Counted from the stretch's first letter, positions 22,111-38,327 are shown. The stretch is 38,327 nt of DNA from Bacteroidota bacterium (GCA_021783875.1 JAJXTM010000003.1:1-38327), one strand, 5' to 3'. Numbers and translations: made by a program. The notes: generated by a model from the sequence alone, not told the origin.

Positions 22111-23586
22111 TCACAAAAGGTTAATTAAATCATTAAATATTTCAACCATGGCTTGGGTGTCCATTTTGCAGTAGTTTAATAAATTGTTTCTTATTTCTTC
22201 TATCTTAAATAGATCTGATTCGTAATATAGGCTTTCGAATGCGGAAGATGCTGTGCCTCCTTCTTTTATTCCGAGATCATCATATTTCAATTCCGGAATT
22301 AGTGCTGGCAGGACTTTTTTTATTGAATAAGAGCCTTTCATTGCTGGTTTATAATAATATCTTTTTTGAAATGGGATCATTAAATCGACTATCCTTGAAA
22401 TTCTTTCCTCTATTTCATAGGCGAATTCAGGAAAATCTTTGGCTATTTCTTTCAAGCGAGATATTTCAAATGATTTATTGTAAACTAGAATTGTCCCAAT
22501 GTCCTTTGTATCTTTGAGTAATTTAGTAATAAATTCATCTCGAGGATCGCCGTTTGCTTCCGCTAAAAATTCATGATGCTCGAGTCTACTGCCGGATTTC
22601 TTTTGAAAATGAAGCGAATACTGGAATGGGATCTGCTGATATGGTCTTGCATTATTAAACAACGGTACTGCCGGCATGAATGTTTCAAAGTCCATAAAAT
22701 ATATTGGATATTTTATCGTGTTTAAGAATTGTTTAATTTCTTTCATCTTAATTATGGTTTTGTTGGATATATGAGATTCAACCTGCATCCGCTGATTATC
22801 ATTTAAATCATTAGCTTCCGGAATATCTTCGAGGTTGACTATTCCATTATTATAAAATTCAAATTTCTTTTTAATATTTAAGTTTGCAATGTCAAAGACG
22901 GAATAATCAGGAACATTTTCCCAACAATGGCTAAAAAAACTGCAAGCATAAGGATCAAAGCATTGAGTTCCGATTGGTATCCCCAGAATATTTTTTCTCA
23001 GTAATACTTCTTTTAACCGAGATGTTTCCTTTTCAATAAATTCCTGTTTAGGAATAATTAGGTTCATTACACTTTCAATATTAAAAAGTGAATGAATATC
23101 CAGTTCTCCCGATCTTACATATTGGTTATTGATATAAATAATCGAAATGTCTTCGATTTCGATAGAGGAATTTGAAAGGACATAATATTGAACGGCTGCA
23201 TCAATTAGATAGGTATCCGATATTGAAGTGGAACTTTTTACTTCATAGATTTTCCATTTATTTCCGATTTTAACAATAATATCGCTAATTACTAATATGC
23301 CGTCAAATAGGAAAGCAGCTTCGTAAATAACCTCAGTATTTTCATCTATAAGTTTGCTTGTTTTATTTATTGCAGCATCCGACTTTTTTGGATCATCCGT
23401 TGCGATTTTTCCTCCGGGAAATAATTCTTGCGCCAGGACTCCGACGTCAGTGCCCCGCTTGAATACTGCTTGAAGATTTTCGCTTACTTTATCCATCCAG
23501 TCATAATGATATTTATAAAGGAACAGCTGCTTCTCGCATTGAATGCCTTTAATAAATGATGATTTGCTTAGTAAATGCTTTCCCAT
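22111..23586 (-). CDS. DUF2779 domain protein: Cas4-like PD-(D/E)XK plus DEDD exonuclease-like
   Basis: N-term GIQCEKQLFLYKY, VISDIIVKIGNKWKIYEVKSST (D-x(n)-ExK), GTQCFDPYACSFFSHCW (Cys cluster), then YFMDFETFMPAVPLF, LVYNKSFEISRLKEIA, NYCKMDTQAMVEI (DEDD-like). Confidence 0.8.
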   Translation of the reverse strand: MGKHLLSKSSFIKGIQCEKQLFLYKYHYDWMDKVSENLQAVFKRGTDVGVLAQELFPGGKIATDDPKKSDAAINKTSKLIDENTEVIYEAAFLFDGILVISDIIVKIGNKWKIYEVKSSTSISDTYLIDAAVQYYVLSNSSIEIEDISIIYINNQYVRSGELDIHSLFNIESVMNLIIPKQEFIEKETSRLKEVLLRKNILGIPIGTQCFDPYACSFFSHCWENVPDYSVFDIANLNIKKKFEFYNNGIVNLEDIPEANDLNDNQRMQVESHISNKTIIKMKEIKQFLNTIKYPIYFMDFETFMPAVPLFNNARPYQQIPFQYSLHFQKKSGSRLEHHEFLAEANGDPRDEFITKLLKDTKDIGTILVYNKSFEISRLKEIAKDFPEFAYEIEERISRIVDLMIPFQKRYYYKPAMKGSYSIKKVLPALIPELKYDDLGIKEGGTASSAFESLYYESDLFKIEEIRNNLLNYCKMDTQAMVEIFNDLINLL

Positions 23587-23588
23587 AA

Positions 23589-24665
23589 TTAATTTTGAAC
23601 GGTGAAACCGGATTTTTCGATTAAAAATTTAGCCTTCATAGCTATTTGTTCTGAATCAAATGAGATTCTAAAAGTACCTCCCGTACCTTCACGAATTTTA
23701 AGAAGTTCGATATCCTTAATATTTATTCCTTCATTGAACAATAATGTAGTTAGATTACTAAGCACTCCCGGTTTATCGCTTACAAATACGTAAATATCAT
23801 ATAAAGGGTTTATAAAACCCTTATTGTTCTTAGGTATTTCATCGCGTTTAATTCTTGCAGATTCAAAAGATTTTTCTATAAATTTTAAATCGCCGGACTT
23901 AATTGCATTTTCTATGGCACCGAGTCTTTCTTTTATTGTTTTGATAGAGAAAATAATATTTTTACTATTGAGATCAATGACGGATTCCCATATATCAAAC
24001 TTGCTTGATGCAATGCGAGTCATGTCTCTGAAACCTCCTGCGGAAAAGTCAAGATAGTTTATTTTTCCTTCTTCTTCGGGAAGTGAATTTACCAATGCGA
24101 TAGAAAGAAGCTGTGGTAGATGGCTAACCATGGATACAATTTTATCATGAAGTTTTGGATCGATAAACTTTATTCGAGCGCCAAGCAAATCAATAATTTT
24201 CAACAAAGGTCCTGACTCATTTTTTAATGTATCCGACAGAATGTAAATGGAGTTTTGGAATAGCAAAGGATCTGAGTTTTCGAATCCACCCTGCTCTTTG
24301 CCGGTCATTGGATGCCCGCCAATGTATTTCCCTTTACTTTTTAACTTCTTCCATTTTTTTTCAAAAACATATTTTACTCCGGATACATCAGTAATTATTG
24401 AATTTGATTTTATGAGCGGAGCAAGAATATTTAAAGCTTTTAGAGATATGCTGGTAGGTAGGCATAGAAAAATAATGTCAGCGTTGGCTGCTTCTTCAAT
24501 AGAATTTAATTCCCTATCGATTAAATTGGACTTCTTTGCTGATAATAGGACATCTTTTTTATCGAAGGCATTGATTATATAGTCTGAAGAAGTATTCTTT
24601 AGAGATTTTGCAATTGAGCCGCCTATTAGTCCGAGACCGATAATTGATATTTTATTCGAAATCAA
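23589..24665 (-). CDS. tyrA: Prephenate dehydrogenase with C-terminal ACT-like domain
   Basis: ISIIGLGLIGGSIAKSL, GGHPMTGKEQGGFENSDPLLFQNS, AGGFRDMTRIASS; C-term YVFVSDKPGVLSNLTTLLFNEGINIKDIELLKIREG. Confidence 0.92.
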   Translation of the reverse strand: MISNKISIIGLGLIGGSIAKSLKNTSSDYIINAFDKKDVLLSAKKSNLIDRELNSIEEAANADIIFLCLPTSISLKALNILAPLIKSNSIITDVSGVKYVFEKKWKKLKSKGKYIGGHPMTGKEQGGFENSDPLLFQNSIYILSDTLKNESGPLLKIIDLLGARIKFIDPKLHDKIVSMVSHLPQLLSIALVNSLPEEEGKINYLDFSAGGFRDMTRIASSKFDIWESVIDLNSKNIIFSIKTIKERLGAIENAIKSGDLKFIEKSFESARIKRDEIPKNNKGFINPLYDIYVFVSDKPGVLSNLTTLLFNEGINIKDIELLKIREGTGGTFRISFDSEQIAMKAKFLIEKSGFTVQN

Positions 24666-24760: not shown

Positions 24761-25774
24761 TTACATTTTTCTGCTGATTACTTCAGCTATTGATTTAACT
24801 TGTTTCATCAAGTCAATATATTGTTCTGGTAAAAGGGCTTGAGGTCCGTCTGATAAAGCTTTTTCCGGGTCATTGTGGATTTCAACCATTAGACCATCTG
24901 CACCGGCAGCTACAGCGGCTCTTGCCATAGGAAGCACTTTATCACGCAGTCCGGTAGCATGTGAAGGATCGGCTATTACCGGTAAATGACTTCTTTTATG
25001 AACTACTGGAATTGCGGAAAGATCAAATGTATTTCTTGTTGAAGTTTCAAATGTGCGTATGCCTCTTTCGCAAAGCATCACTTCCTTATTTCCATTGGAC
25101 AATATATATTCGGCAGACATCAGCCAATCTTCAACAGTCGCAGACAGCCCTCGTTTAAGCATTATAGGAGTAGAAGTTTTCCCCAAGTCACGAAGCAATG
25201 AGAAATTCTGCATATTACGAGCACCGACCTGAAAAATATCCGTATATTCTTCAATCAATTTAATTTGAGCAGATTCCATAACTTCAGTAATAACCAGAAG
25301 ATTATATTTATCAGCAGCTTTTCTCAAGAGCTTTAAACCTTCTTCTCCGAGTCCTTGAAATGAATAAGGAGAGGTTCTAGGCTTAAATGCACCGCCGCGA
25401 AGTATTTTAGCACCTGAATTTGCTACGATTTCGGCAATAGTAAATATTTGATCTTCATTTTCAACTGAACAAGGACCAGCCATCATAACGACTTCGTCCC
25501 CGCCAATTACAACATTTTTAATTTTAATTTCGGTATTCTCTTTTTTAAAGCTTCGGCTAGCTAGTTTAAATGGTTCTGTAATGCGATATACTTCAGCTAC
25601 GCCATCAAGGATTTTAACTTTGCGAGTATCAAAGTCAGGTTTAACTCCAATTGCACCTAAAATAATTTGTTCAACACCTGTAGAAGTATGTACTGCAAAT
25701 CCGAAATCTTCCAGATGTTTTATTACGTTTTCTATTTGTTTATCGGAAACATTTTTTTCAAGAACTACTACCAC
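24761..25774 (-). CDS. aroF: 3-deoxy-7-phosphoheptulonate synthase (DAHP synthase, type I beta with N-terminal regulatory domain)
   Basis: [81 protein letters not shown]; ferredoxin-like N-terminus. Confidence 0.95.
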
Positions 25775-25785
25775 ATTAACTCCTT

Positions 25786-26424
25786 CTATTTATGAAATTT
25801 TTTTTCGCCAGCTTCAATTGCTACATCCAAATGATCTTCTTTCCGAGGAATAGCACACGAATATGTTGGTGTATAAGCGCAGTATGGATTGTATGCCATA
25901 TTAAAGTCAATAGTATAAATATAATTAGGGTCACGGCTTAAATCAAAATCTAGATATCGCCCTACACCATAGGTTTCATCTCCCGAAGTTTTATCGGTAA
26001 ACCATATTGTATAATAATTTATACTGTTACCGGATTTACCTTGATAGACGTTGAGTTTAATATTTTTATTATCAATATTAAATTTAACATAAGCAAAGCG
26101 AACAATCTGCCGAGCCTCTCCTTTAGTTCCAAAAACTGTTACCGTATCTCTTTTATCATAAAGATATAACTTGCTATAAAAGACATAATCGGGATTTACA
26201 TCATAATAATTAAGCGGATGAAATGAAACATTCTTATCGCGTTGGAATGGAGAATCGGGATCACTCTTCATATAATCATTTTTTTCCTGTCGCAATTTGT
26301 TAACACCGTTTATGTAAAACAGCTGCTGCTCAGTGTATTTTTTTTCACAGGAATTTAAAAGCAGCCCGAATGTAAATATAAAAAGTATTAGATATAAATA
26401 TTTTATTGTTTTTACTTTAAACAT
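25786..26424 (-). CDS. DUF1684 family lipoprotein
   Basis: Lipobox LLNSCEKK; YGVGRYLDFDL..., DFNMAYNPYCAYTPTYSCAIPRKEDHLDVAIEAGEKKF characteristic of DUF1684. Confidence 0.88.
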   Translation of the reverse strand: MFKVKTIKYLYLILFIFTFGLLLNSCEKKYTEQQLFYINGVNKLRQEKNDYMKSDPDSPFQRDKNVSFHPLNYYDVNPDYVFYSKLYLYDKRDTVTVFGTKGEARQIVRFAYVKFNIDNKNIKLNVYQGKSGNSINYYTIWFTDKTSGDETYGVGRYLDFDLSRDPNYIYTIDFNMAYNPYCAYTPTYSCAIPRKEDHLDVAIEAGEKKFHK

Positions 26425-29029
26425 TATCTTTTACCCTTTTCTTTAAATCGCTTAATTTATTGAGTGCCTCAATGGGAGTAAGGTTATTGAGTTCAATATC
26501 GTCAATCTCTTTTCTGAACTTATCATCTCTAAATTCAAACAAGCTAATTTGTGAACCATCTTCTTCCTTCAGCTTTTTCAATCTTTCTTTTCTCACTTCA
26601 TAAGGAGTTAGTTCTTTGCTTTCCAAATTTTGGAGAATTTCCTTAGCTCTATTAGTTACAAACTGAGGCAGACCAGCCATTTGAGCGACCTGGATTCCGT
26701 AACTATGGTCCGCACCACCGGAGCTTACTTTATGCAAAAATATTACTTTATCATCTATTTCTCTTACTTCAACTTTAAAATTTCTTATGCGTGGGAATAT
26801 TTCAGCCATTTCATTTAGTTCATGGTAATGAGTAGCGAACAAAGTTTTAGCACGCACATTTGGGTTTTCATGCAGAAATTCCGTAATTGCCCATGCAATA
26901 GAAATTCCGTCAAAAGTGCTTGTTCCCCTTCCTATTTCATCAAGTAGAATTAAGCTTTTGGAAGTAGCATTATTTAGAATATTTGCTGCTTCCTGCATTT
27001 CAACAAGGAAGGTACTTTCTCCCGCTGAGATATTATCACTCGCCCCGACGCGGGTAAATATTCTGTCGACTAGTCCTATTATTGCTTTTTTAGCGGGAAC
27101 AAAGGAGCCAATTTGCGCAAGAAGAACTATAAGACCAATTTGTCGAAGAAAGACTGACTTCCCAGCCATATTAGGACCGGTTAAAATTATGATTTGATTT
27201 TTTTCATCATCTAGAGAGCAGTTATTAACACTAAATTTTTCTCCCGGAGGTAAAATCCTTTCAATGACAGGATGCCTTCCATCAGTGATTTCAATTGAAT
27301 GATTTTCATTTATTTCCGGTTTTACATAATTATTTTGCTCAGCAATTTCTGCAAAGGAGAGATAACAATCCAAAGTGGCAATCATTTTAGCATTTTGCTG
27401 AATTGAATCGACATGATGAGCTACAATAAGCCTTATTTCATTAAATAGTTGAGACTCAAGTTCATATATTTTTTCTTCGGCATTTAAGATTTTATCTTCA
27501 TAATCTTTCAAATCCGGAGTAATATATCTTTCAGAATTAACCAGAGTTTGTTTTCGTATGTAATCAGTTGGAACTTTATCTTTATTAGCTTGACTAATTT
27601 CGATATAATATCCAAAAACTCTATTATAGCTTACTTTAAGAGAAGAAATACCACTTCTTTCTCTTTCAGTTTTTTGAAGATTAGCAATCCAATCTTTTCC
27701 GTTAAGAGAAATGTTCCTTAATTCGTCAAGTTCAGCGCTAAAGCCATGTTTAATTACTCCGCCTTCGGCTAAGTTTAAAGGCGGGAAATCGATGATAGCT
27801 TTTTCAATTTTCTGCACCAAGCCTTCAAGCGGAGATAAATTATTTTGTATAAAAATTAATGATTTTGCCGTTACTGATTCAAGCAGGCTTTTTAGAGCCG
27901 GAATTTTAGTCAAGGAAGATTTAAGGGCAACCAGTTCGCGGGGATTTGCCCTTCCGGTGCAGATTTTAGATACTAATCTTTCAAGATCGCCTATTTCTTT
28001 TAACTCATTCAGAAGATTTTTCCGAAGAGTTTTATTCAGATAAAGATTTTCTACTGCATTCTGTCTTATCTGAATCTGTTCTAATTTTCTTAAAGGTGCA
28101 GATACCCATTTTTTTAATAATCTGCCGCCCATAGCTGTTTCGGTGTTATCGAGGATTGAAATTAATGAACCTTCCCTGTTGCCGTCCTGCATTGAAAAAG
28201 TAATTTCTAAATTTCGTTTTGTAGAATAATCCAGCGCCATAAAGTCAGACGGATTATATTCGGAGATTTTATTAAGATGAGACAAATTTTGTTTTTGAGT
28301 TTCCTGCAAGTAGTTCAATACGGAACCTGCAGCGGTAATACCCGCAATAAGATTATCAATACCAAAACCTTTTAGGTTTACGGTTTTAAACTGCATAACT
28401 AAAAGTTCTTTTGCGTAATCGTAATTAAAGATCCAGTCATCAACTTTTGTCAGTCTGATGGTCGGATTGATTTTTTGAATGGTTTGAGAAAGCCAATCTT
28501 TATCTTTCTTTTGAATAATAATTTCGGAAGGAGATATAGTTTCGACTTGCTGATTGATATTTTCAGTTGGGATTTCATAGGCAAAAAATTCACCGGTAGA
28601 AATATCGCAAAAAGAAATTCCGGTAATAGTATCTTTAACGCAAAGACTAAGCAAATAATTATTTTTTTTATGATCTAAAAGTTTATCGGAGAAAGCAACA
28701 CCCGGAGTAATAACTTCAATAACCTCACGTTTAACAATTCCCTTTGCGAATTTAGGATTTTCCATTTGCTCGCAGACAGCCACACGGTAACCAGCGCGAA
28801 CCAGTTTTGGAAGATAAGTATCGAGGGCATGATGAGGAAAACCGGCAAGTGGTACTTCCCCGGCAGCGCCGTTAGCTCGTTTAGTGAGAGTAATTCCCAA
28901 AACTTTTGAAGCTATTTTCGCATCATCTTCAAAAGTTTCAAAGAAATCGCCCATCCGGAAGAGTAAAATAGTATCCGGATTAGCTGATTTTATCTTACTA
29001 TATTGTAACATTAATGGTGTTTGTTGCAT
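26417..29029 (-). CDS. mutS: DNA mismatch repair protein MutS
   Basis: TPLMLQYSKIKSANPDTILLFRMGDFFETFEDDA, GPNMAGKSVFLRQIGLIVLLAQIGSFVPA, LLDEIGRGTSTFDG, FATHYHEL; 870 aa. Confidence 0.98.
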   Translation of the reverse strand: MQQTPLMLQYSKIKSANPDTILLFRMGDFFETFEDDAKIASKVLGITLTKRANGAAGEVPLAGFPHHALDTYLPKLVRAGYRVAVCEQMENPKFAKGIVKREVIEVITPGVAFSDKLLDHKKNNYLLSLCVKDTITGISFCDISTGEFFAYEIPTENINQQVETISPSEIIIQKKDKDWLSQTIQKINPTIRLTKVDDWIFNYDYAKELLVMQFKTVNLKGFGIDNLIAGITAAGSVLNYLQETQKQNLSHLNKISEYNPSDFMALDYSTKRNLEITFSMQDGNREGSLISILDNTETAMGGRLLKKWVSAPLRKLEQIQIRQNAVENLYLNKTLRKNLLNELKEIGDLERLVSKICTGRANPRELVALKSSLTKIPALKSLLESVTAKSLIFIQNNLSPLEGLVQKIEKAIIDFPPLNLAEGGVIKHGFSAELDELRNISLNGKDWIANLQKTERERSGISSLKVSYNRVFGYYIEISQANKDKVPTDYIRKQTLVNSERYITPDLKDYEDKILNAEEKIYELESQLFNEIRLIVAHHVDSIQQNAKMIATLDCYLSFAEIAEQNNYVKPEINENHSIEITDGRHPVIERILPPGEKFSVNNCSLDDEKNQIIILTGPNMAGKSVFLRQIGLIVLLAQIGSFVPAKKAIIGLVDRIFTRVGASDNISAGESTFLVEMQEAANILNNATSKSLILLDEIGRGTSTFDGISIAWAITEFLHENPNVRAKTLFATHYHELNEMAEIFPRIRNFKVEVREIDDKVIFLHKVSSGGADHSYGIQVAQMAGLPQFVTNRAKEILQNLESKELTPYEVRKERLKKLKEEDGSQISLFEFRDDKFRKEIDDIELNNLTPIEALNKLSDLKKRVKDNV

Positions 29030-29353
29030 AGCATTAAATTAAGGTGTTTAAAATACCTTAATATGGAAAGAATATCAATTTTGAAATATTTTTATTATCG
29101 GGTCGAAACGTATTAACGAATACATCAGCGAATCTAAAGCCGGTTATATTCAAATAAAAAGAACTTAACAAAGTTTTATTATTTTCATTCACTTTTGATA
29201 TAAGTTTAAAAAAATGTCCAATTATAAATATAATTTTTCTATTCTTCCATTTATTTCAAATGTTCACAAAAAGATTTCTTTTGGGGATAGAAATATTGAA
29301 TATAATTACAAATAATTAGTTATTAGAATTAAGTATTTTACTCATGTTATAGG

Positions 29354-30166
29354 TTGAAAAGAGTATTTAATTTTTTATATTTGTACTTAAGAAGAAGTTA
29401 TTACAATTTCTATTTTATCCATAATCCAAAAGAGATAAACAAATTGAGAGAAGAATATCATAAATGGCATTCACAGTATTTTGAACGTGAATTTGAAATG
29501 CTTGTTTTTGGTCATGACGGTTATCCAATAATATTATTTCCTACTTCAAAAGGAAGATTTTATGAAAATAAGGATTTCGGATTAGTAGGCAGTGCAGAAA
29601 GTCTTCTAAATGATGGAAAAATTAAGATATATTGCCCGGATAGCGTCGATGCGGAAAGCTGGTATAACTATTCAATAAGTCCTGCTGATAGGGTTAAATC
29701 TCATACTGGTTATGAAAATGTTATTTTATATGATGTTGTTGAATTTGCCAAACATGAAACCGGTAGACAGAAGGTTGGATTAGCAGGGTGCAGTTTCGGA
29801 GGATATCATGCGGCTAATTTAGCATTCAGATATCCTGGAAAATTCGGGTACGTTTTCAGCATGGGCGGCAGTTTTGATATTAAGCAATTTTTAGCAGGTT
29901 ATTACGATGACAATTGTTATTTCAATAATCCTCCGGACTATTTGCCAAATTTAGAAGACAACTGGTTTCTTGATAGGATTAAGGAAATGGGTATTATACT
30001 AGGAACTGGAGAATGGGATATGTGTCTCGATGAAAATAAAAGACTTTCTAACATTCTTAATGAGAAAGGGATTAGCCATTGGCTTGATATCAGGCGGGAT
30101 GCTGGACATGATTGGCAATGGTGGAGAGAAATGTTTCCGGAATATTTAGGAAAAATTAAGGAGTAA
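29354..30166 (+). CDS. Esterase (alpha/beta hydrolase)
   Basis: EEYHKWHSQYFEREFEMLVFGHDGYPIILFPTSKGRFYE, VGLAGCSFGGYHAANLAFRYPG (GxSxG), GEWD, AGHDWQWW (His). ORF start is TTG at 29354; an alternative TTG at 29444 is possible. Confidence 0.85.
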   Translation: MKRVFNFLYLYLRRSYYNFYFIHNPKEINKLREEYHKWHSQYFEREFEMLVFGHDGYPIILFPTSKGRFYENKDFGLVGSAESLLNDGKIKIYCPDSVDAESWYNYSISPADRVKSHTGYENVILYDVVEFAKHETGRQKVGLAGCSFGGYHAANLAFRYPGKFGYVFSMGGSFDIKQFLAGYYDDNCYFNNPPDYLPNLEDNWFLDRIKEMGIILGTGEWDMCLDENKRLSNILNEKGISHWLDIRRDAGHDWQWWREMFPEYLGKIKE

Positions 30167-30168
30167 CT

Positions 30169-31122
30169 TTGAAGAAAATCGGGATATTATTTGGTCAAGA
30201 GAATACTTTCCCACAGGCATTTGTGGATAGAGTTAATTCAAAAAAGGATTCTTCCGTTTCTGCGGATTTTGTCAAAATTGATAAAGTGATTCAAGGTGAA
30301 GAATGCGGATATGATGTCATTATTGACAGAATTTCGCAGGATGTTCCCTTTTATAGAGGATACTTAAAAAATGCTTCATTAAACGGAACCGCTGTTATTA
30401 ATAATCCGTTTTGGTGGAGTGCCGATGAAAAATTTTTTAATAATGCATTGGCTACAAAATTAAAAGTTGCTGTGCCTAAAACTGTTTTGCTTCCTTCTAA
30501 CCAACATCCTCCCGATACAACTTCAAATTCATTTAGGAATCTTACATATCCCTTAGATTGGGAAGGAATTTTTTCTTATGTAGGGTTTCCTGCTTATTTC
30601 AAGCCATTTTCCGGTGGAGGATGGAAAAATGTTTATAAACTTAATAATTCAGATGAGTTTTATAAAGCATATAATGAAACCGGTCAGCTAGTCATGATGC
30701 TTCAGGAAGAAATTATATTCACGGATTATTTTCGCTGTTATTGCATTGACAGAAAAGATGTTCACATAATGCAATATGATCCTAGGCAGCCGCATCATTT
30801 AAGATACGTTAAAGGATCTTTGGAGACTGAAAAAAAATTATTAGAGAAAATTGAAGCGGGTGTATTAGAGTTAAATAAGGGACTTGGTTACGATTTTAAT
30901 ACTGTTGAGTTTGCAGTGCGAGACGGAATACCTTATGCAATCGATTTCTGCAACCCAGCTCCGGATGCTGACCTAAATTCAGTTGGCGAAGATAATTTTG
31001 AATGGATTGTTGAAAGCTCCTCTAATATGGCAATAAGAAGAGCCCACAATCATATTCCCAGTAGAAATAATCTTACTTGGGGTAGTTTTATAAATTCATT
31101 TGTAAAAAACGAAACATTATAG
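30169..31122 (+). CDS. ATP-grasp domain protein (RimK-like amidoligase)
   Basis: MKKIGILFGQENTFPQAFVD; PAYFKPFSGGGWKNVYKL (Gly-rich ATP loop), VEFAVRDGIPYAIDFCNPAPDADL (metal-binding D/N); TTG start 2 nt after the esterase stop. Confidence 0.8.
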   Translation: MKKIGILFGQENTFPQAFVDRVNSKKDSSVSADFVKIDKVIQGEECGYDVIIDRISQDVPFYRGYLKNASLNGTAVINNPFWWSADEKFFNNALATKLKVAVPKTVLLPSNQHPPDTTSNSFRNLTYPLDWEGIFSYVGFPAYFKPFSGGGWKNVYKLNNSDEFYKAYNETGQLVMMLQEEIIFTDYFRCYCIDRKDVHIMQYDPRQPHHLRYVKGSLETEKKLLEKIEAGVLELNKGLGYDFNTVEFAVRDGIPYAIDFCNPAPDADLNSVGEDNFEWIVESSSNMAIRRAHNHIPSRNNLTWGSFINSFVKNETL

Positions 31123-31131
31123 GGAAAACAA

Positions 31132-32229
31132 TTGTTTACTTTAGGGATTGAAGAAGAGTTTCAAATTATAGATCCTGACACCCGTGAATTAAAATCGCAT
31201 ATTCAGCAGATACTTGAAGACGGTAAATCTATACTTGCCGAAAATGTGAAAGCAGAGATGCATCAATCTGTCGTTGAAATGGGCACTGGAATTTGCGGCG
31301 ATATTATGCACGCTAGACGAGAGGTGACAGAATTAAGGACTAACCTTTCACGCTTGGCAAAAAAAAACAACTTAAAAATTGCAGCGTCGGGTACACATCC
31401 ATTTTCTCATTGGAAAGATCAAAAAATTACTGATCATCCAAGATATCAAGAAATTGTCTCAGATATGCAGCAAGTGGCAAGAGCAAATTTAATATTCGGA
31501 CTTCATGTACATGTAGGGTTAGATGACAGGGAATCTGCTATACACATTATGAATTCGGCAAGATATTTTTTACCGCATATTTTCGCACTTTCTACCAATT
31601 CGCCTTTTTGGTTAGGAAGAAACACCGGTTTTAAATCCTATCGAAGTAAAGTGTTTGATCGGTTTCCCCGGACAGGTATACCAGATCATTTCGGAAGTGT
31701 TGCCGAATATGATAATTATATCAATTTGCTTGTTAAAACAAAATGTATTGATAATGCAAAAAAAGTTTGGTGGGATATTAGAGTTCATCCGTTTTTCGAT
31801 ACTCTTGAATTTAGGATTTGCGACATACCGATGAGGGTAGATGAAACAATAGCTATTGCGGCTCTTTGCCAGGCTTTAGTGTTCAAACTTTACAAATTGA
31901 TGAAACAGAATCTAGGATTTAGACTTTACCGTAGGTTACTAATTGCAGAGAATAAATGGCGTGCTGCGCGTTACGGCATTACCGGTAAATTAATTGACTT
32001 TGGTAAACAAGAGGAAGTAGATTTTAGTGAATTATCTAAGGAATTAATTGAATTTGTTGATGATGTAGTGGATGAGTTAGGTTCAAGAAATGAAATAAAT
32101 TATATCAATACTATAATGCAAAACGGCACCGGAGCAGATAGACAGCTTAAGGTTTGGGATGAGACTCAGGATTTAAGAAAAGTTGTTGACTATATTATTG
32201 AAGAAACTCAATTTGGATTGTCTATATAG
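31132..32229 (+). CDS. Carboxylate-amine ligase, GCS2/YbdK family
   Basis: MFTLGIEEEFQIIDPDTRELKSHI, EMHQSVVEMGTGICGDIMHARREV, GLHVHVGLDDRESAIHIMN, VWWDIRVHPFFDTLEFRICDIPMRVDE; TTG start with in-frame TAG 3 codons upstream. Confidence 0.92.
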   Translation: MFTLGIEEEFQIIDPDTRELKSHIQQILEDGKSILAENVKAEMHQSVVEMGTGICGDIMHARREVTELRTNLSRLAKKNNLKIAASGTHPFSHWKDQKITDHPRYQEIVSDMQQVARANLIFGLHVHVGLDDRESAIHIMNSARYFLPHIFALSTNSPFWLGRNTGFKSYRSKVFDRFPRTGIPDHFGSVAEYDNYINLLVKTKCIDNAKKVWWDIRVHPFFDTLEFRICDIPMRVDETIAIAALCQALVFKLYKLMKQNLGFRLYRRLLIAENKWRAARYGITGKLIDFGKQEEVDFSELSKELIEFVDDVVDELGSRNEINYINTIMQNGTGADRQLKVWDETQDLRKVVDYIIEETQFGLSI

Positions 32230-32242
32230 AATTAAGTATTAT

Positions 32243-33073
32243 ATGAAAAAAAAAGAAACCAGGATAGCTATTATTGATCTTTATAACAATGAAGAAAACG
32301 AAGGAATTAGGTGTTTAAGAGAAATTGCCGGAGATCTGAACTTGAATCAATTTCAAATTCCTGTAAGTCACCGTGTATATGAAACTCGATATAAAGATGA
32401 GGTTCCTGAAATCGATTATGATATATTTATTTCCTCAGGCGGACCAGGAAGTCCATTTGAGGGGATTAATCAGAAATGGGAAAGTGATTATTTCTCTTTA
32501 ATTGAGAAAATATGGGATCATAATCAAACTAATCCCGAAAGAAAGAAATATATTTTTTTTATTTGCCATTCTTTCCAAATGATGGCAAGGTATTTTAAAT
32601 TCGCTGAAGTAAATGAACGTTATGAAAAATCCTTTGGGGTTTTTCCCTTTCGAAGAACAAGTAAAGGTAAAAGCGATCTGATTTTTGAAAATTTACCGGA
32701 TCCATTTTACGCGGCTGATTTCAGAAAGTATCAAGTTGTACAGAAAAATCATAAAATTATGGACGACTTAGAAGCTAATATTTTGGCTTTGGAGATTGAT
32801 GATGGAATACATGAAAGCGCATTAATGGCTGTCAGAATTTCAGATGAGATTGTCGGGACGCAATTTCACCCGGAAGCCGATCCAAACAGTATGATGTATC
32901 ATTTAATACAGGAAGAAAGAAAGAAATTCATAATAGATAAATTCGGCGAAGCAAAATACCGGGAAATGGTGTCTAATTTAGAGGATCCTGATAAAATTAA
33001 ATTAACAAGGAGTACAGTCCTCCCTGCCTTTTTAATTTCGGCATTAGAAAAATTAAATTTTATAAAAATATAA
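32243..33073 (+). CDS. Class I glutamine amidotransferase-like protein
   Basis: ISSGGPGSPFEG, IFFICHSFQMMARYF (nucleophile Cys), GTQFHPEADPNS (catalytic H-x-E). Start placed at ATG 32243 (MKKKETRIAIIDLY); ORF track start 32183 lies inside the upstream CDS. Confidence 0.85.
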   Translation: MKKKETRIAIIDLYNNEENEGIRCLREIAGDLNLNQFQIPVSHRVYETRYKDEVPEIDYDIFISSGGPGSPFEGINQKWESDYFSLIEKIWDHNQTNPERKKYIFFICHSFQMMARYFKFAEVNERYEKSFGVFPFRRTSKGKSDLIFENLPDPFYAADFRKYQVVQKNHKIMDDLEANILALEIDDGIHESALMAVRISDEIVGTQFHPEADPNSMMYHLIQEERKKFIIDKFGEAKYREMVSNLEDPDKIKLTRSTVLPAFLISALEKLNFIKI

Positions 33074-33096
33074 ATTTCATTGGGCAAAGAGAAAAT

Positions 33097-34284
33097 ATGA
33101 ATTCAAAATTAAGAGATAGGTTCAATTCAGAATTTACTGAAAATAATTATAAACTTTTTCTTGATGACGTTAACTCAATTTTAAAATTTCCTGCTGATTT
33201 TAGAATTGCGGAAACCCCGCTGTTTTTAACAGAATCATTGTCAATTGATTTAATCAATTACTCACATGAAATTGTAAATCAATTAATGACTGAAGAATTT
33301 ATTGAACATTCAAAAAATGCAGTACCTAAAAAATTATTTGTTCCCAATGAAAAGGATCATCCTGAGTTTCTTCAAATTGACTTCGCTGTATCTATTGATG
33401 ATGATGGGAAGTATATTCCCCGCTTAATAGAGCTTCAGGGCTTTCCTTCTCTTTACGGATTTCAGTATTTTTTAGACAAAACGATGAGAAAGCATTTTAA
33501 AATTCCAAAGAATTATTCTACTTTTTTTAACGGAATTGATTCAAAATCATATGTCGATATTTTAAATGATTTGATAATAGGTAAAAGTGATCCAGAAAAT
33601 ATAATTCTTATGGATATAAATCCCGAGAAGCAAAAGACAAGAATTGATTTTGCTGCCACAGAGAAATTATTGGGAATTAAAAGTGTATGTATTTCAAAAA
33701 TTATTCAGAAGAATAATAAACTTTTCTATCAAGAACATGGTAAAGAAATTCCAATTGAAAAAATTTATAACAGAGTAATATTTGATGAATTAATTAGAGG
33801 GAAGCATAAAGTTAATATAGATTTCACTAAAGATTTGAATGTTGATTGGGTTGGTCACCCCAATTGGTTTTTCAGAATCAGCAAACACACACTTCCCTTT
33901 CTATCAGGAGACTTTGTACCTGAATGCTACTTTTTAAGCGATCTTGATGAATATCCGGTTGATTTGGAAAATTTTGTGTTGAAACCTCTTTATTCTTTTG
34001 CCGGTCATGGAGTTGAATTAGATGTTACACCTGAAATTCTTGATAATATTGATGACAAATCAAATTATATTCTGCAGGCAAAAGTCAATTATGCACCTCT
34101 AATAAAAACTCCCGGTGACGAATTTGCAAAAGCTGAAATAAGGTTAATGTTTGTTTGGGAAGATATCCCGGTCTTAGTTAATAATTTGGTAAGAATAAGC
34201 AAAGGTAAGATGATGGGAGTCGACTATAATAAAAATAAAACCTGGGTTGGATCGAGTCTTGCATACCATCCACCTGTTTTTTAA
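33097..34284 (+). CDS. Putative circularly permuted ATP-grasp protein
   Basis: N-terminal 'PRLIELQGFPSLYGFQ' (acidic/N-like metal motif) precedes C-terminal 'FVLKPLYSFAGHGVEL' (K-P-x(n)-G-x-G ATP loop) and 'AEIRLMFVW'; motif order as in glutathionylspermidine-synthase-type folds. Confidence 0.55.
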   Translation: MNSKLRDRFNSEFTENNYKLFLDDVNSILKFPADFRIAETPLFLTESLSIDLINYSHEIVNQLMTEEFIEHSKNAVPKKLFVPNEKDHPEFLQIDFAVSIDDDGKYIPRLIELQGFPSLYGFQYFLDKTMRKHFKIPKNYSTFFNGIDSKSYVDILNDLIIGKSDPENIILMDINPEKQKTRIDFAATEKLLGIKSVCISKIIQKNNKLFYQEHGKEIPIEKIYNRVIFDELIRGKHKVNIDFTKDLNVDWVGHPNWFFRISKHTLPFLSGDFVPECYFLSDLDEYPVDLENFVLKPLYSFAGHGVELDVTPEILDNIDDKSNYILQAKVNYAPLIKTPGDEFAKAEIRLMFVWEDIPVLVNNLVRISKGKMMGVDYNKNKTWVGSSLAYHPPVF

Positions 34285-34289
34285 GCAAT

Positions 34290-37200
34290 ATGAATAAAAG
34301 TAAACATTTTTCTTGCGGCAATAAAGAAAAGATCATTTTTGATTTCCATGTATCAAATCATGCCCGGAACAAGTATAAAATTGAAGAATCACTTTTTTCA
34401 ATAAGCGGAGATTTAATCATTGCGAATTTTAATGTTGCCAGAATTATTTCCGGAAAAATTAATGACATTCGAAAATCACAATCGAACAGTCAATTGACCA
34501 CTGCTGGACAATTAAATGCTCTTGGATTGATCCATGAAATTTTCCATTATCTGATTCGCTTATATGAAGAAAATGAAAATCCGGGAGTTTTTTCTAGAGG
34601 ATTAAAATTTCTTGCACAGAATATCGGCAAAGAAAATCTTGATTCTATTTTGCTAACATTCACAAAAGAATTTTCTCCATTACCGGTATTTCAAAGAAAG
34701 ATTTCAGCACAGGAATATTTGGAAAAATCGACAGGGACAAAACAGAATAAAGAAATTATTCTTGAAGAATTAATTTTACTTTATCTTGAAAATTCTAATC
34801 AAGCAACGCCTGCACTGGAAGAACTTTACTCGAATAAACCGTTAAAAGAAAAGACCGTTTATCAGATTTTTATTGAAAAATTGGAATATTTTTTCTTATT
34901 AGAAAAATCATTCGGAAAGGAAAATCTTTCGCTAATAACTTTTCTTAAAAAGCCTTTGCTTGAAAGCCCTTATAATATTGAAGGACAATTAGAATACATA
35001 AGAGAAAATTGGAGTCTATTAATTAAGGACTTATTTTTAGATCGTCTTTTAAGAGGGAAAGATTTGATAACAGAGGATATTAGACTTTTTCTGCGGCACG
35101 GATCCTACGAAAAACCAACACCGCCAGTACCTACTTATGAGTTTGACAGCGATTATTTTCAGGCTCTTAAATTAAAATTAGATACCGGAGAAACATTATC
35201 GGATATTGAAAATCATTATTATCATTCCGAGATTGAAAAATTCACCCAGGACTTAGACTGGATGCCTAAGGTGGTAATGATTGCAAAGAACATTTATGTA
35301 TGGATGGATCAGCTATCAAAAAAATTCAAAAGGCAAATTTCAAGGTTGGATGAAATACCAGATGAAGAATTAGACTTATTGTCGAAATGGAATTTTACTA
35401 GTTTATGGCTAATTGGAATATGGGAAAGAAGTAGCGCTTCTCGAAAAATAAAACAACTTACCGGAAATCCAGATGCCGCTCCATCAGCATATTCATTGTT
35501 TGATTATGTAATTGCTGGCGAGCTAGGCGGTGAAGAAGCATTTCAAAACTTAAAACATCGTGCGGCATTAAGAGGGATTCGCCTGGCAAGTGATATGGTT
35601 CCGAATCATACCGGTATTTATTCAAAATGGATAATTGAAAAACCTAATTTTTTTATTCAGACAGATTATCCACCATTCCCAAATTATACATTTTATAGTC
35701 CGAACCTCTCTGATGACCCTAGAGTAGAAATAAGGATAGAAGACAGATATTATTCACGTGAAGATGCCGCAGTAGTATTTCAGAGAAAAGATAACCAAAC
35801 TGGTTCAATAAAGTATATTTATCACGGTAATGATGGAACTCATATGCCGTGGAATGATACGGCGCAATTAAATCTCTTGAACCCCGAAGTAAGAGAATCA
35901 CTTATACAAACTATTATACACGTAGCCAAAAAATTTCCAATTATTCGTTTTGATGCTGCTATGACATTAGCTAAAAAACATTATCAAAGACTATGGTTTC
36001 CCCAATCAGGAACCGGGGGAGCAATTCCATCGCGCTCGGATTATTCAATGACTAGGAGTGGATTTGATGAGGCTATGCCGGATGAATTCTGGCGGGAAGT
36101 TGTAGATAGAATAAATAAGGAATTACCAAGTACACTTCTGCTTGCGGAAGCATTCTGGCTTATGGAAGGATATTTTGTACGGACTCTGGGTATGCACAGA
36201 GTATACAATAGCGCATTTATGCACATGTTAATGAAAGAAGAAAATGATAAATATCGTGAGCTAATTAAGAATACTATGGATTTTAATCCTGAAATTCTGA
36301 AACGCTATGTTAATTTTATGAGCAATCCTGATGAAGAGACCGCTGTAAATCAATTCGGCAAGGGAGATAAATATTTCGGCGTTGCAATGTTAATGATTAC
36401 TCTTCCCGGACTTCCGATGTTTGCTCATGGACAGATAGAAGGATTTGCCGAGAAGTACGGAATGGAATATAAACGGGCATATTTGAATGAGTATTCCGAT
36501 TATAATTTAATTAGCAGACATGAATCAGAATTATTTCCTTTAATGGAGAAAAGATATTTATTTAGTCAGGTAACCGATTTTGAATTTTACGATTTTATAA
36601 ATGATTCAGGATTAATTAATGAAAATGTATTTGCTTTTACAAACCGATCCGGAGAAGAAAAGGTACTAATTGTTTATAATAATGCTTATACACAATGCAG
36701 CGGGAAAATATATTTATCGGTCATAAAAAAATTCAATGATGATTCTAATCCTTATGCCAAAAGAATTAAAAAGATTTCAGATGCACTTCATTTAAATTCA
36801 GGCCCATCCTATTATTATATATGCAAAGAGCAAAGAACCGGAATGGAATATTTATTATCCGGTAAAGAAATTTCTGAAGAAGGGATTTATTTCTCTTTGT
36901 CAGGATATGAGTATAAGGTTTTAATCAATTTTGAAATCGTTTTTGATAAATACGGCGATTATTCCAGAATGTATCAGATTATAAAAGGAGTGGGAATCCC
37001 ATCAATCAATCAAAGATTATATGAAATGAAGCTAGCTCCTCTTCATGAATCATTGAATTATTTATTTTCGAAAGAAATTTTTCATGAATTAGCAGGATTT
37101 ACATTCAATACAAAAATATTAGTAAAAAAAGATTTGGAATTCGGTTTAGGATTACTCCCTGAATTAAGAGAAAATACTGCAAATTTGGTACATGAATTAA

Positions 37201-38003
37201 ATTCTGTTTATAAATTAAAAATTAACTATGAAACAGTAATTGGATATCTTCAGAGTGATTTAATTAATTTGAACCGACGATATATAGATTTAAGGAACTA
37301 TATTACAATACCACTAATTAACAATAATTTTTTCAAAGATTTCAAATCTGTCAACAAAGAAATTGAATTCCTTTTCATTTATATTTTCTTAAGTAGAATT
37401 CAAAAGACAATTAAGCAGGAATCTGCTGAGGTAGAATTTTTTGAGAATCTAATGTTAAGAAAAGCTTTAATTGATATTTTTAAAGATTTAGGACATAATG
37501 TGGATAGCATTTTTGAAGAAGTATCTTTAATGCAGTCATTGCTTTCCAAATATAGCTTAATCAAAAAAATATCTTTTATTGAACCGGGGAATGAACATAT
37601 TCTTATATCGGAATTGATAGATAATAAGGAGTTAATAGATTTTCTATTATTGAACGAATTTGATAAAATCATTTATTTTAATAAAGAACGCTTTGAAATT
37701 ATTATACAATGGATATTCCTTCTTTCCCTTTTAGAAAGCGAAAATGCCATTATTTCTAAGAAGGATGCTAAGGCAGAAAAGAAATCAAAATCAATTAAGG
37801 ATAAGGCTATAAATTTATCTAATACGTTTGAATTCCTGCTAAAGAAATCTGCAGAATCCGGTTATAGGTTAAATACTTTTAAAGAATTAATAGCTCCAAA
37901 AGAAATTGATACAAAACATAAAACAAAGAATAAAGATGCAGAGGTTTTAGGTGATTCAAGCAATCCGAGAAGAAAGAAAAATAAAGATGATAAAATCGGA
38001 TAA
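34290..38003 (+). CDS. Large (1237 aa) GH13 alpha-amylase-like protein with long unassigned N- and C-terminal regions
   Basis: GH13 regions: ASDMVPNHTG (I), IIRFDAAMTLA (II, D555), LLAEAFW (III, E620), FMSNPDEETA (IV-like, D681); (beta/alpha)8-like core about aa 320-800; flanks unassigned; Lys-rich tail. Confidence 0.8.
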   Translation: MNKSKHFSCGNKEKIIFDFHVSNHARNKYKIEESLFSISGDLIIANFNVARIISGKINDIRKSQSNSQLTTAGQLNALGLIHEIFHYLIRLYEENENPGVFSRGLKFLAQNIGKENLDSILLTFTKEFSPLPVFQRKISAQEYLEKSTGTKQNKEIILEELILLYLENSNQATPALEELYSNKPLKEKTVYQIFIEKLEYFFLLEKSFGKENLSLITFLKKPLLESPYNIEGQLEYIRENWSLLIKDLFLDRLLRGKDLITEDIRLFLRHGSYEKPTPPVPTYEFDSDYFQALKLKLDTGETLSDIENHYYHSEIEKFTQDLDWMPKVVMIAKNIYVWMDQLSKKFKRQISRLDEIPDEELDLLSKWNFTSLWLIGIWERSSASRKIKQLTGNPDAAPSAYSLFDYVIAGELGGEEAFQNLKHRAALRGIRLASDMVPNHTGIYSKWIIEKPNFFIQTDYPPFPNYTFYSPNLSDDPRVEIRIEDRYYSREDAAVVFQRKDNQTGSIKYIYHGNDGTHMPWNDTAQLNLLNPEVRESLIQTIIHVAKKFPIIRFDAAMTLAKKHYQRLWFPQSGTGGAIPSRSDYSMTRSGFDEAMPDEFWREVVDRINKELPSTLLLAEAFWLMEGYFVRTLGMHRVYNSAFMHMLMKEENDKYRELIKNTMDFNPEILKRYVNFMSNPDEETAVNQFGKGDKYFGVAMLMITLPGLPMFAHGQIEGFAEKYGMEYKRAYLNEYSDYNLISRHESELFPLMEKRYLFSQVTDFEFYDFINDSGLINENVFAFTNRSGEEKVLIVYNNAYTQCSGKIYLSVIKKFNDDSNPYAKRIKKISDALHLNSGPSYYYICKEQRTGMEYLLSGKEISEEGIYFSLSGYEYKVLINFEIVFDKYGDYSRMYQIIKGVGIPSINQRLYEMKLAPLHESLNYLFSKEIFHELAGFTFNTKILVKKDLEFGLGLLPELRENTANLVHELNSVYKLKINYETVIGYLQSDLINLNRRYIDLRNYITIPLINNNFFKDFKSVNKEIEFLFIYIFLSRIQKTIKQESAEVEFFENLMLRKALIDIFKDLGHNVDSIFEEVSLMQSLLSKYSLIKKISFIEPGNEHILISELIDNKELIDFLLLNEFDKIIYFNKERFEIIIQWIFLLSLLESENAIISKKDAKAEKKSKSIKDKAINLSNTFEFLLKKSAESGYRLNTFKELIAPKEIDTKHKTKNKDAEVLGDSSNPRRKKNKDDKIG

Positions 38004-38012
38004 CTTCTTTAT

Positions 38013-38327
38013 TTAGGTTGAAAGATATTTTTTTATTGCATCTGCGCAATTTTCTCCGTCAATTGCGGATGAAACAATACCTCCTGCATATCCGGCGCCT
38101 TCAGCACATGGGAATAGTCCTCTCACCTGAGTATGCATCAAAGTAATTTTATCCCTAGGGATTTTAACCGGTGAGCTGGTACGGCTTTCAACAGCCAAAA
38201 TTTGTGCTTCGTCAGTATAGTAACCTTTCATTTTCTGATCGAAGATTTTCATTGCCCTTTGAAGTGATTTTGTAATAAAGTCAGGCAAAACTTCATGAAG
38301 AGGAGTTGAAATTATACCGGGAATATA
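38013..38327 (-). CDS. FAD-dependent dehydrogenase (COG2509-like), C-terminal part, truncated by window edge
   Basis: YIPGIISTPLHEVLPDFITKSLQRAMKIFDQ...VESRTSSPVKIPRD...LFPCAEGAGYAGGIVSSAIDG; frame is open to the window end, so the ORF-track 'M' is an internal TTG. Confidence 0.8.
   Translation of the reverse strand, partial: YIPGIISTPLHEVLPDFITKSLQRAMKIFDQKMKGYYTDEAQILAVESRTSSPVKIPRDKITLMHTQVRGLFPCAEGAGYAGGIVSSAIDGENCADAIKKYLST

Follow-up and report, generated by a model that had tools for sequence, protein, structure and literature searches.

The window analyzed here is a 38,327-nucleotide stretch of DNA from a Bacteroidota bacterium (GCA_021783875.1, JAJXTM010000003.1:1-38327), in which six plus-strand open reading frames (ORFs) are packed within positions 29354-38003 with intergenic gaps of 2, 9, 13, 23 and 5 bp. 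The first five of these genes are a real, uncharacterized module that is widely shared in the phylum. On balance we favor the view that this conserved three-ligase amidoligase module (about 29444-34284) makes a small soluble compound of peptide or amide type, with the sixth gene, which encodes a GH13 protein, lying outside the pathway. The module consists of an α/β-hydrolase (EST, 29444-30166, about 240 aa), a Ddl/RimK-like ATP-grasp ligase (ATPG, 30169-31122, 317 aa), a GCS2/YbdK-type carboxylate-amine ligase (YBDK, 31132-32229, 365 aa), a hydrolase of the class I glutamine amidotransferase (GATase) fold (GAT, 32243-33073, 276 aa) and an ATP-grasp ligase of the glutathione synthetase (GSS)/glutathionylspermidine synthetase (GspS)/YgiC fold (CPAG, 33097-34284, 395 aa).

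The distribution of the five genes was examined in a phylum sample of 297 Bacteroidota genomes and in a relatives sample of 97 genomes, 79 of which were rated good. Neighborhoods of CPAG homologs repeat the order EST-ATPG-YBDK-GAT-CPAG in other Bacteroidota families. Among the 297 genomes, CPAG was detected in 92 (94 matches minus two fragmentary low-scoring ones) and ATPG in 108, with both present in 89 (Fisher p = 2e-52). All 87 genomes carrying a close YBDK homolog also carried CPAG, and ATPG was found in 69 of the 70 genomes with GAT. The relatives gave the same picture, with CPAG and ATPG counted in 46 genomes each and together in 45. G135 and G149 are examples of single-contig genomes in which ATPG, YBDK and CPAG are all present although widely separated, which supports a functional link between them over a merely positional one. 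The CPAG tree groups mostly by family, consistent with a history of mainly vertical descent with frequent loss. In a further 16 genomes reached through individual loci, including seven from Aminicenantes or Asgard archaea, ATPG occurred in just one (that of locus L064). The preliminary description of this DNA had asked whether the genes co-occur beyond this genome; the first five do, across Bacteroidota families, and their shared order, their tight co-occurrence even when unlinked and the retention of catalytic residues support a functional unit. A text search of the literature found no paper with this gene set.

All five proteins keep the residues expected of active amide ligases or hydrolases. 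EST matched the Pfam Esterase family (PF00756, E = 7e-8) and, weakly, an enterochelin esterase model; its aligned family shows a GxSxG nucleophile at Ser147, with Asp222 and His252 at the expected places. YBDK matched PF04107 with 218 bits and exceeded the cut-offs of both the PRK13515 carboxylate-amine ligase model (555 bits against 371) and TIGR02050 (304 bits against 176), and its structural relatives are the YbdK crystal structures 1r8g and 1tt4. It is thus a YbdK-type carboxylate-amine ligase, predicted from its family to couple glutamate to an amine at the expense of ATP. GAT belongs to the class I superfamily (PF00117, E = 5e-10), with an invariant triad of Cys108, His209 and Glu211; its start is placed at ATG 32243, and the mechanically called TTG at 32183 would overlap YBDK.

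The two remaining ligases lie outside curated families. ATPG gave no Pfam match and no NCBIfam match over cut-off; its score against the curated RimK model (16.8 bits, E = 0.0034) falls below the cut-off of 143.4, which leaves it outside RimK as defined by that model. Its profile matched D-Ala-D-Ala ligase distantly (E = 0.0014), and its own family has a mean column identity of 73% over 30 sequences. For CPAG, searches of Pfam and NCBIfam returned no family at E ≤ 0.01, and its profile matched YgiC weakly (E = 0.018). However, the AlphaFold2 model has a mean predicted local distance difference test (pLDDT) score of 93.6, and all 28 Foldseek matches at E ≤ 0.001 were GSS, GSS-like effectors, GspS, YgiC/YjfC or Cp1B (best E = 1e-13; template modeling score by query length 0.42-0.63; identity 8-17%). 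As judged from this model, CPAG is an ATP-grasp protein of the eukaryotic GSS/GspS/YgiC fold, which bears out the earlier ATP-grasp-like call and narrows it. The earlier domain calls for genes 1, 3, 4 and 6 were likewise confirmed by Pfam and similar models, with genes 2 and 5 relying on profile and fold evidence.

Several variants of the cassette occur in other loci. A protein of the M29 aminopeptidase type stands in the GAT slot between YBDK and CPAG in loci L131-L133, L137, L150, L153, L163 and L164 (the Pfam match was run on the L153 copy), and the M29-type genomes sampled in families f5, f10, f14 and f16 gave no GAT match. In families f26, f29, f31 and f45, a protein of about 452 aa comes after ATPG and before GAT; four of these proteins were tested, and three matched CP_ATPgrasp_2 or CP_ATPgrasp_1, some of them below cut-off. 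In loci that have ATPG but no CPAG, the place between ATPG and GAT is taken by a circularly permuted ATP-grasp-like protein. Related loci also carry amidase genes, an amidohydrolase-3 gene upstream of CPAG (f7), and an M17 aminopeptidase together with a third ATP-grasp upstream of the cassette (L109). In locus L122 (7637-10237), CPAG forms part of an 867-aa fusion with a sodium-solute symporter domain, which hints that a substrate is imported or a product exported. Separately, two f7 genomes have an aromatic amino acid lyase gene 3' of their ATPG homologs on the same strand (L167:10324-11682 and L168:10289-11728), and the L167 copy scores over the histidine ammonia-lyase cut-off.

Taken from the enzyme families, a pathway can be proposed in which YBDK would link an amine or amino acid to the γ-carboxyl of glutamate, or of an acid like it. 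ATPG would then add a second residue, and CPAG would attach an amino acid or amine to the C-terminal carboxylate as a cap. GAT, or elsewhere the M29 aminopeptidase in its slot, would hydrolyze an amide so that the compound is trimmed or recycled, and EST would remove an ester or thioester group. We infer that the product would be a peptide or amide of γ-glutamyl type. The idea of an uncharacterized amide or peptide metabolite pathway, already put forward in the preliminary description, is the best reading for genes 1-5, given their conserved order, co-occurrence and active-site residues. Operons of ATP-grasp and GCS2 amidoligases were reportedly surveyed by Iyer and colleagues in 2009; that class likewise consists of small operons in which several amide ligases are combined with GATase and hydrolase genes.

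Several points weigh against this reading. The ligation order and the chemistry are deduced from enzyme families. The genomes are related by descent, which inflates the Fisher p values. In 37 of the 92 CPAG genomes GAT is missing, and the known stand-in, M29, is present in only some of these. Finally, 19 of the 32 genomes of the window's family have GH13 on the CPAG strand and no more than about 1 kb further downstream, so a functional tie between the two may exist in this family.

The known systems closest in composition are glutathione and glutathionylspermidine synthesis (GCS, eukaryotic-type GSS, GspS, YgiC/YjfC), where a GCS-type ligase is likewise paired with a ligase of GSS or GspS fold. 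By analogy, the module could make a cofactor of this kind, with YBDK forming a γ-glutamyl dipeptide, ATPG extending it, CPAG adding an amino acid or polyamine as the cap, EST hydrolyzing S-acyl thiols and GAT or the M29 and M17 peptidases recycling the product; the presence of both peptidases and of an amidase in related loci would fit such a scheme. However, the cassette also brings a Ddl/RimK-like ligase, a class I GATase and an esterase, CPAG has low identity to the matched structures, and these genomes already have a bacillithiol synthase. BshC was found in 90 of the 97 relatives (77 of the 79 good genomes). Since it is near-universal, a main thiol, perhaps bacillithiol, is probably already available in the relatives, which weakens a main-thiol role for the product. 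The window's own assembly, which is 80% complete, gave no BshC match. The cassette is also absent from half of the relatives. Polyamine capping by way of carboxynorspermidine was rejected, as carboxynorspermidine decarboxylase (nspC) scored over cut-off in none of the 97 genomes, in a search that covered this polyamine route only. We therefore regard a glutathione-like or glutathionylspermidine-like cofactor as fairly unlikely.

The pairing of a ligase with a GATase-fold hydrolase also recalls putrescine utilization by PuuA-PuuD, in which a ligase tags the substrate with glutamate and a hydrolase of the class I GATase fold takes the tag off again. A comparable γ-glutamylation route could serve the uptake and breakdown of amines or peptides, and the symporter-CPAG fusion as well as the amidohydrolase-3, amidase, M17 and M29 genes of related loci would be in keeping with it. 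Nevertheless, such a route needs fewer than the three ligases present here, YBDK belongs to another ligase family, Pfam searches of the cassette identified neither an oxidase nor an aldehyde dehydrogenase, and GAT matches PF00117 rather than a γ-glutamyl hydrolase family. On these grounds a PuuA-PuuD-like role is unlikely.

Amidoligases are known to tag proteins, and the weak match of ATPG to the RimK family raises the question of whether RimK-like and YbdK-like ligases of the module add residues to a protein or a small carrier peptide. This is quite improbable, since no conserved gene for a small carrier was seen among the ORFs of about 70 aa or more in the compared cassettes, and the substrates of characterized GSS-fold enzymes are small molecules or peptides. 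Such substrates are described for the GSS-fold enzymes Cp1B and YgiC (PMC12568646).

The sixth gene, which lies outside the five-gene module in the preferred reading, occupies 34290-38003 on the plus strand and encodes a 1237-aa protein with a helical N-terminal region. PF00128 was matched, the core fold was recovered in the predicted structure at a lower pLDDT of 75, and catalytic Asp555, Glu620 and Asp681 lie in conserved motifs and are invariant across relatives, which places the protein in GH13 at the level of the family, not of a specific subfamily; a single-sequence search against the Protein Data Bank found no relative. GH13 α-amylases near glgC-glgA have the same fold and catalytic motifs, and the window protein differs from them in its size, its long helical N-terminal region and its variable C-terminal region. 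Related proteins, 40-49% identical to it in the best segment, were also seen in Lokiarchaeota and Hodarchaeota metagenome-assembled genomes (L090-L097), some adjoining a phosphoglucomutase-type gene. A starch/glycogen synthase-type gene lies on the same contig at 2169-3659, about 30 kb from the GH13 gene.

Unlike CPAG, which occurs in 47 of the 97 relatives, GH13 is present in 95 of them, including all 79 good genomes, and mostly as a single copy. In the phylum sample, 28 genomes had both GH13 and CPAG, 64 had CPAG only and 88 had GH13 only (one-sided p = 0.99 for association), and none of the 63 GH13-carrying genomes of family f24 had CPAG. Several loci are arranged GH13-glgC-glgA. In L073 and L075 the cassette is absent and mutS lies 234 and 120 bp from GH13, both genomes also lacking ATPG; L067 retains EST alone of the cassette. 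Since mutS adjoins GH13 in cassette-free genomes, the cassette occupies the site between them, and the best reading is that in the window's family a patchy amidoligase cassette sits between mutS and a resident core GH13 gene. GH13 is an older core gene of the order, probably acting in α-glucan metabolism; it probably lies outside the cassette pathway, although it may be co-transcribed with the cassette in the window's family. A single six-gene pathway with GH13 supplying or accepting a sugar on the peptide product, as proposed in the preliminary description, would agree with the 5-bp gap after CPAG and the 19 close placements noted above, but it is very improbable given this occurrence of GH13 irrespective of the cassette, which also leaves the sugar-transfer step unsupported.

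The surroundings of the locus agree with the preliminary layout, as the ORF calls reproduced the six plus-strand genes, their gaps, the divergent mutS and the convergent next gene. mutS lies upstream on the minus strand (26417-29029) and marks the cassette site, and an open-ended convergent ORF (38013-38327) follows GH13. The start of EST was originally called at TTG 29354; an alternative TTG at 29444 gives 240 aa and is probably the true start, because homologs begin at a conserved (V/L)KEEYHKW stretch. Between mutS and the cassette (29030-29443), the best upstream match to a -35/-10-like consensus is at 29205-29234. Sigma-70-type matches across 28900-38327 numbered 55 against a shuffle mean of 45.9 (standard deviation 6.4), which is about as frequent as in shuffles and therefore uninformative alone. 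A search of the window against Rfam gave zero family matches and thus no known RNA regulator, and a tblastn search of PLSDB with ATPG for plasmid carriage gave zero matches. An anti-phage defense system was rejected on a PADLOC model search, which gave zero matches. Elsewhere in the window, a DUF2779 protein (22114-23586) adjoins shikimate-pathway genes, namely prephenate dehydrogenase (23592-24665) and DAHP synthase (24764-25774).

Separating GH13 from the module shows which five genes belong together for expression. The conservation of this five-gene set across many families, with genes 2 and 5 outside curated families, points to a common undescribed metabolite. More tentatively, and with the odds somewhat against it, many Bacteroidota families may make an undescribed cofactor or osmolyte of γ-glutamyl type, built by three ligases and turned over by an exchangeable hydrolase of GATase fold or M29 type.

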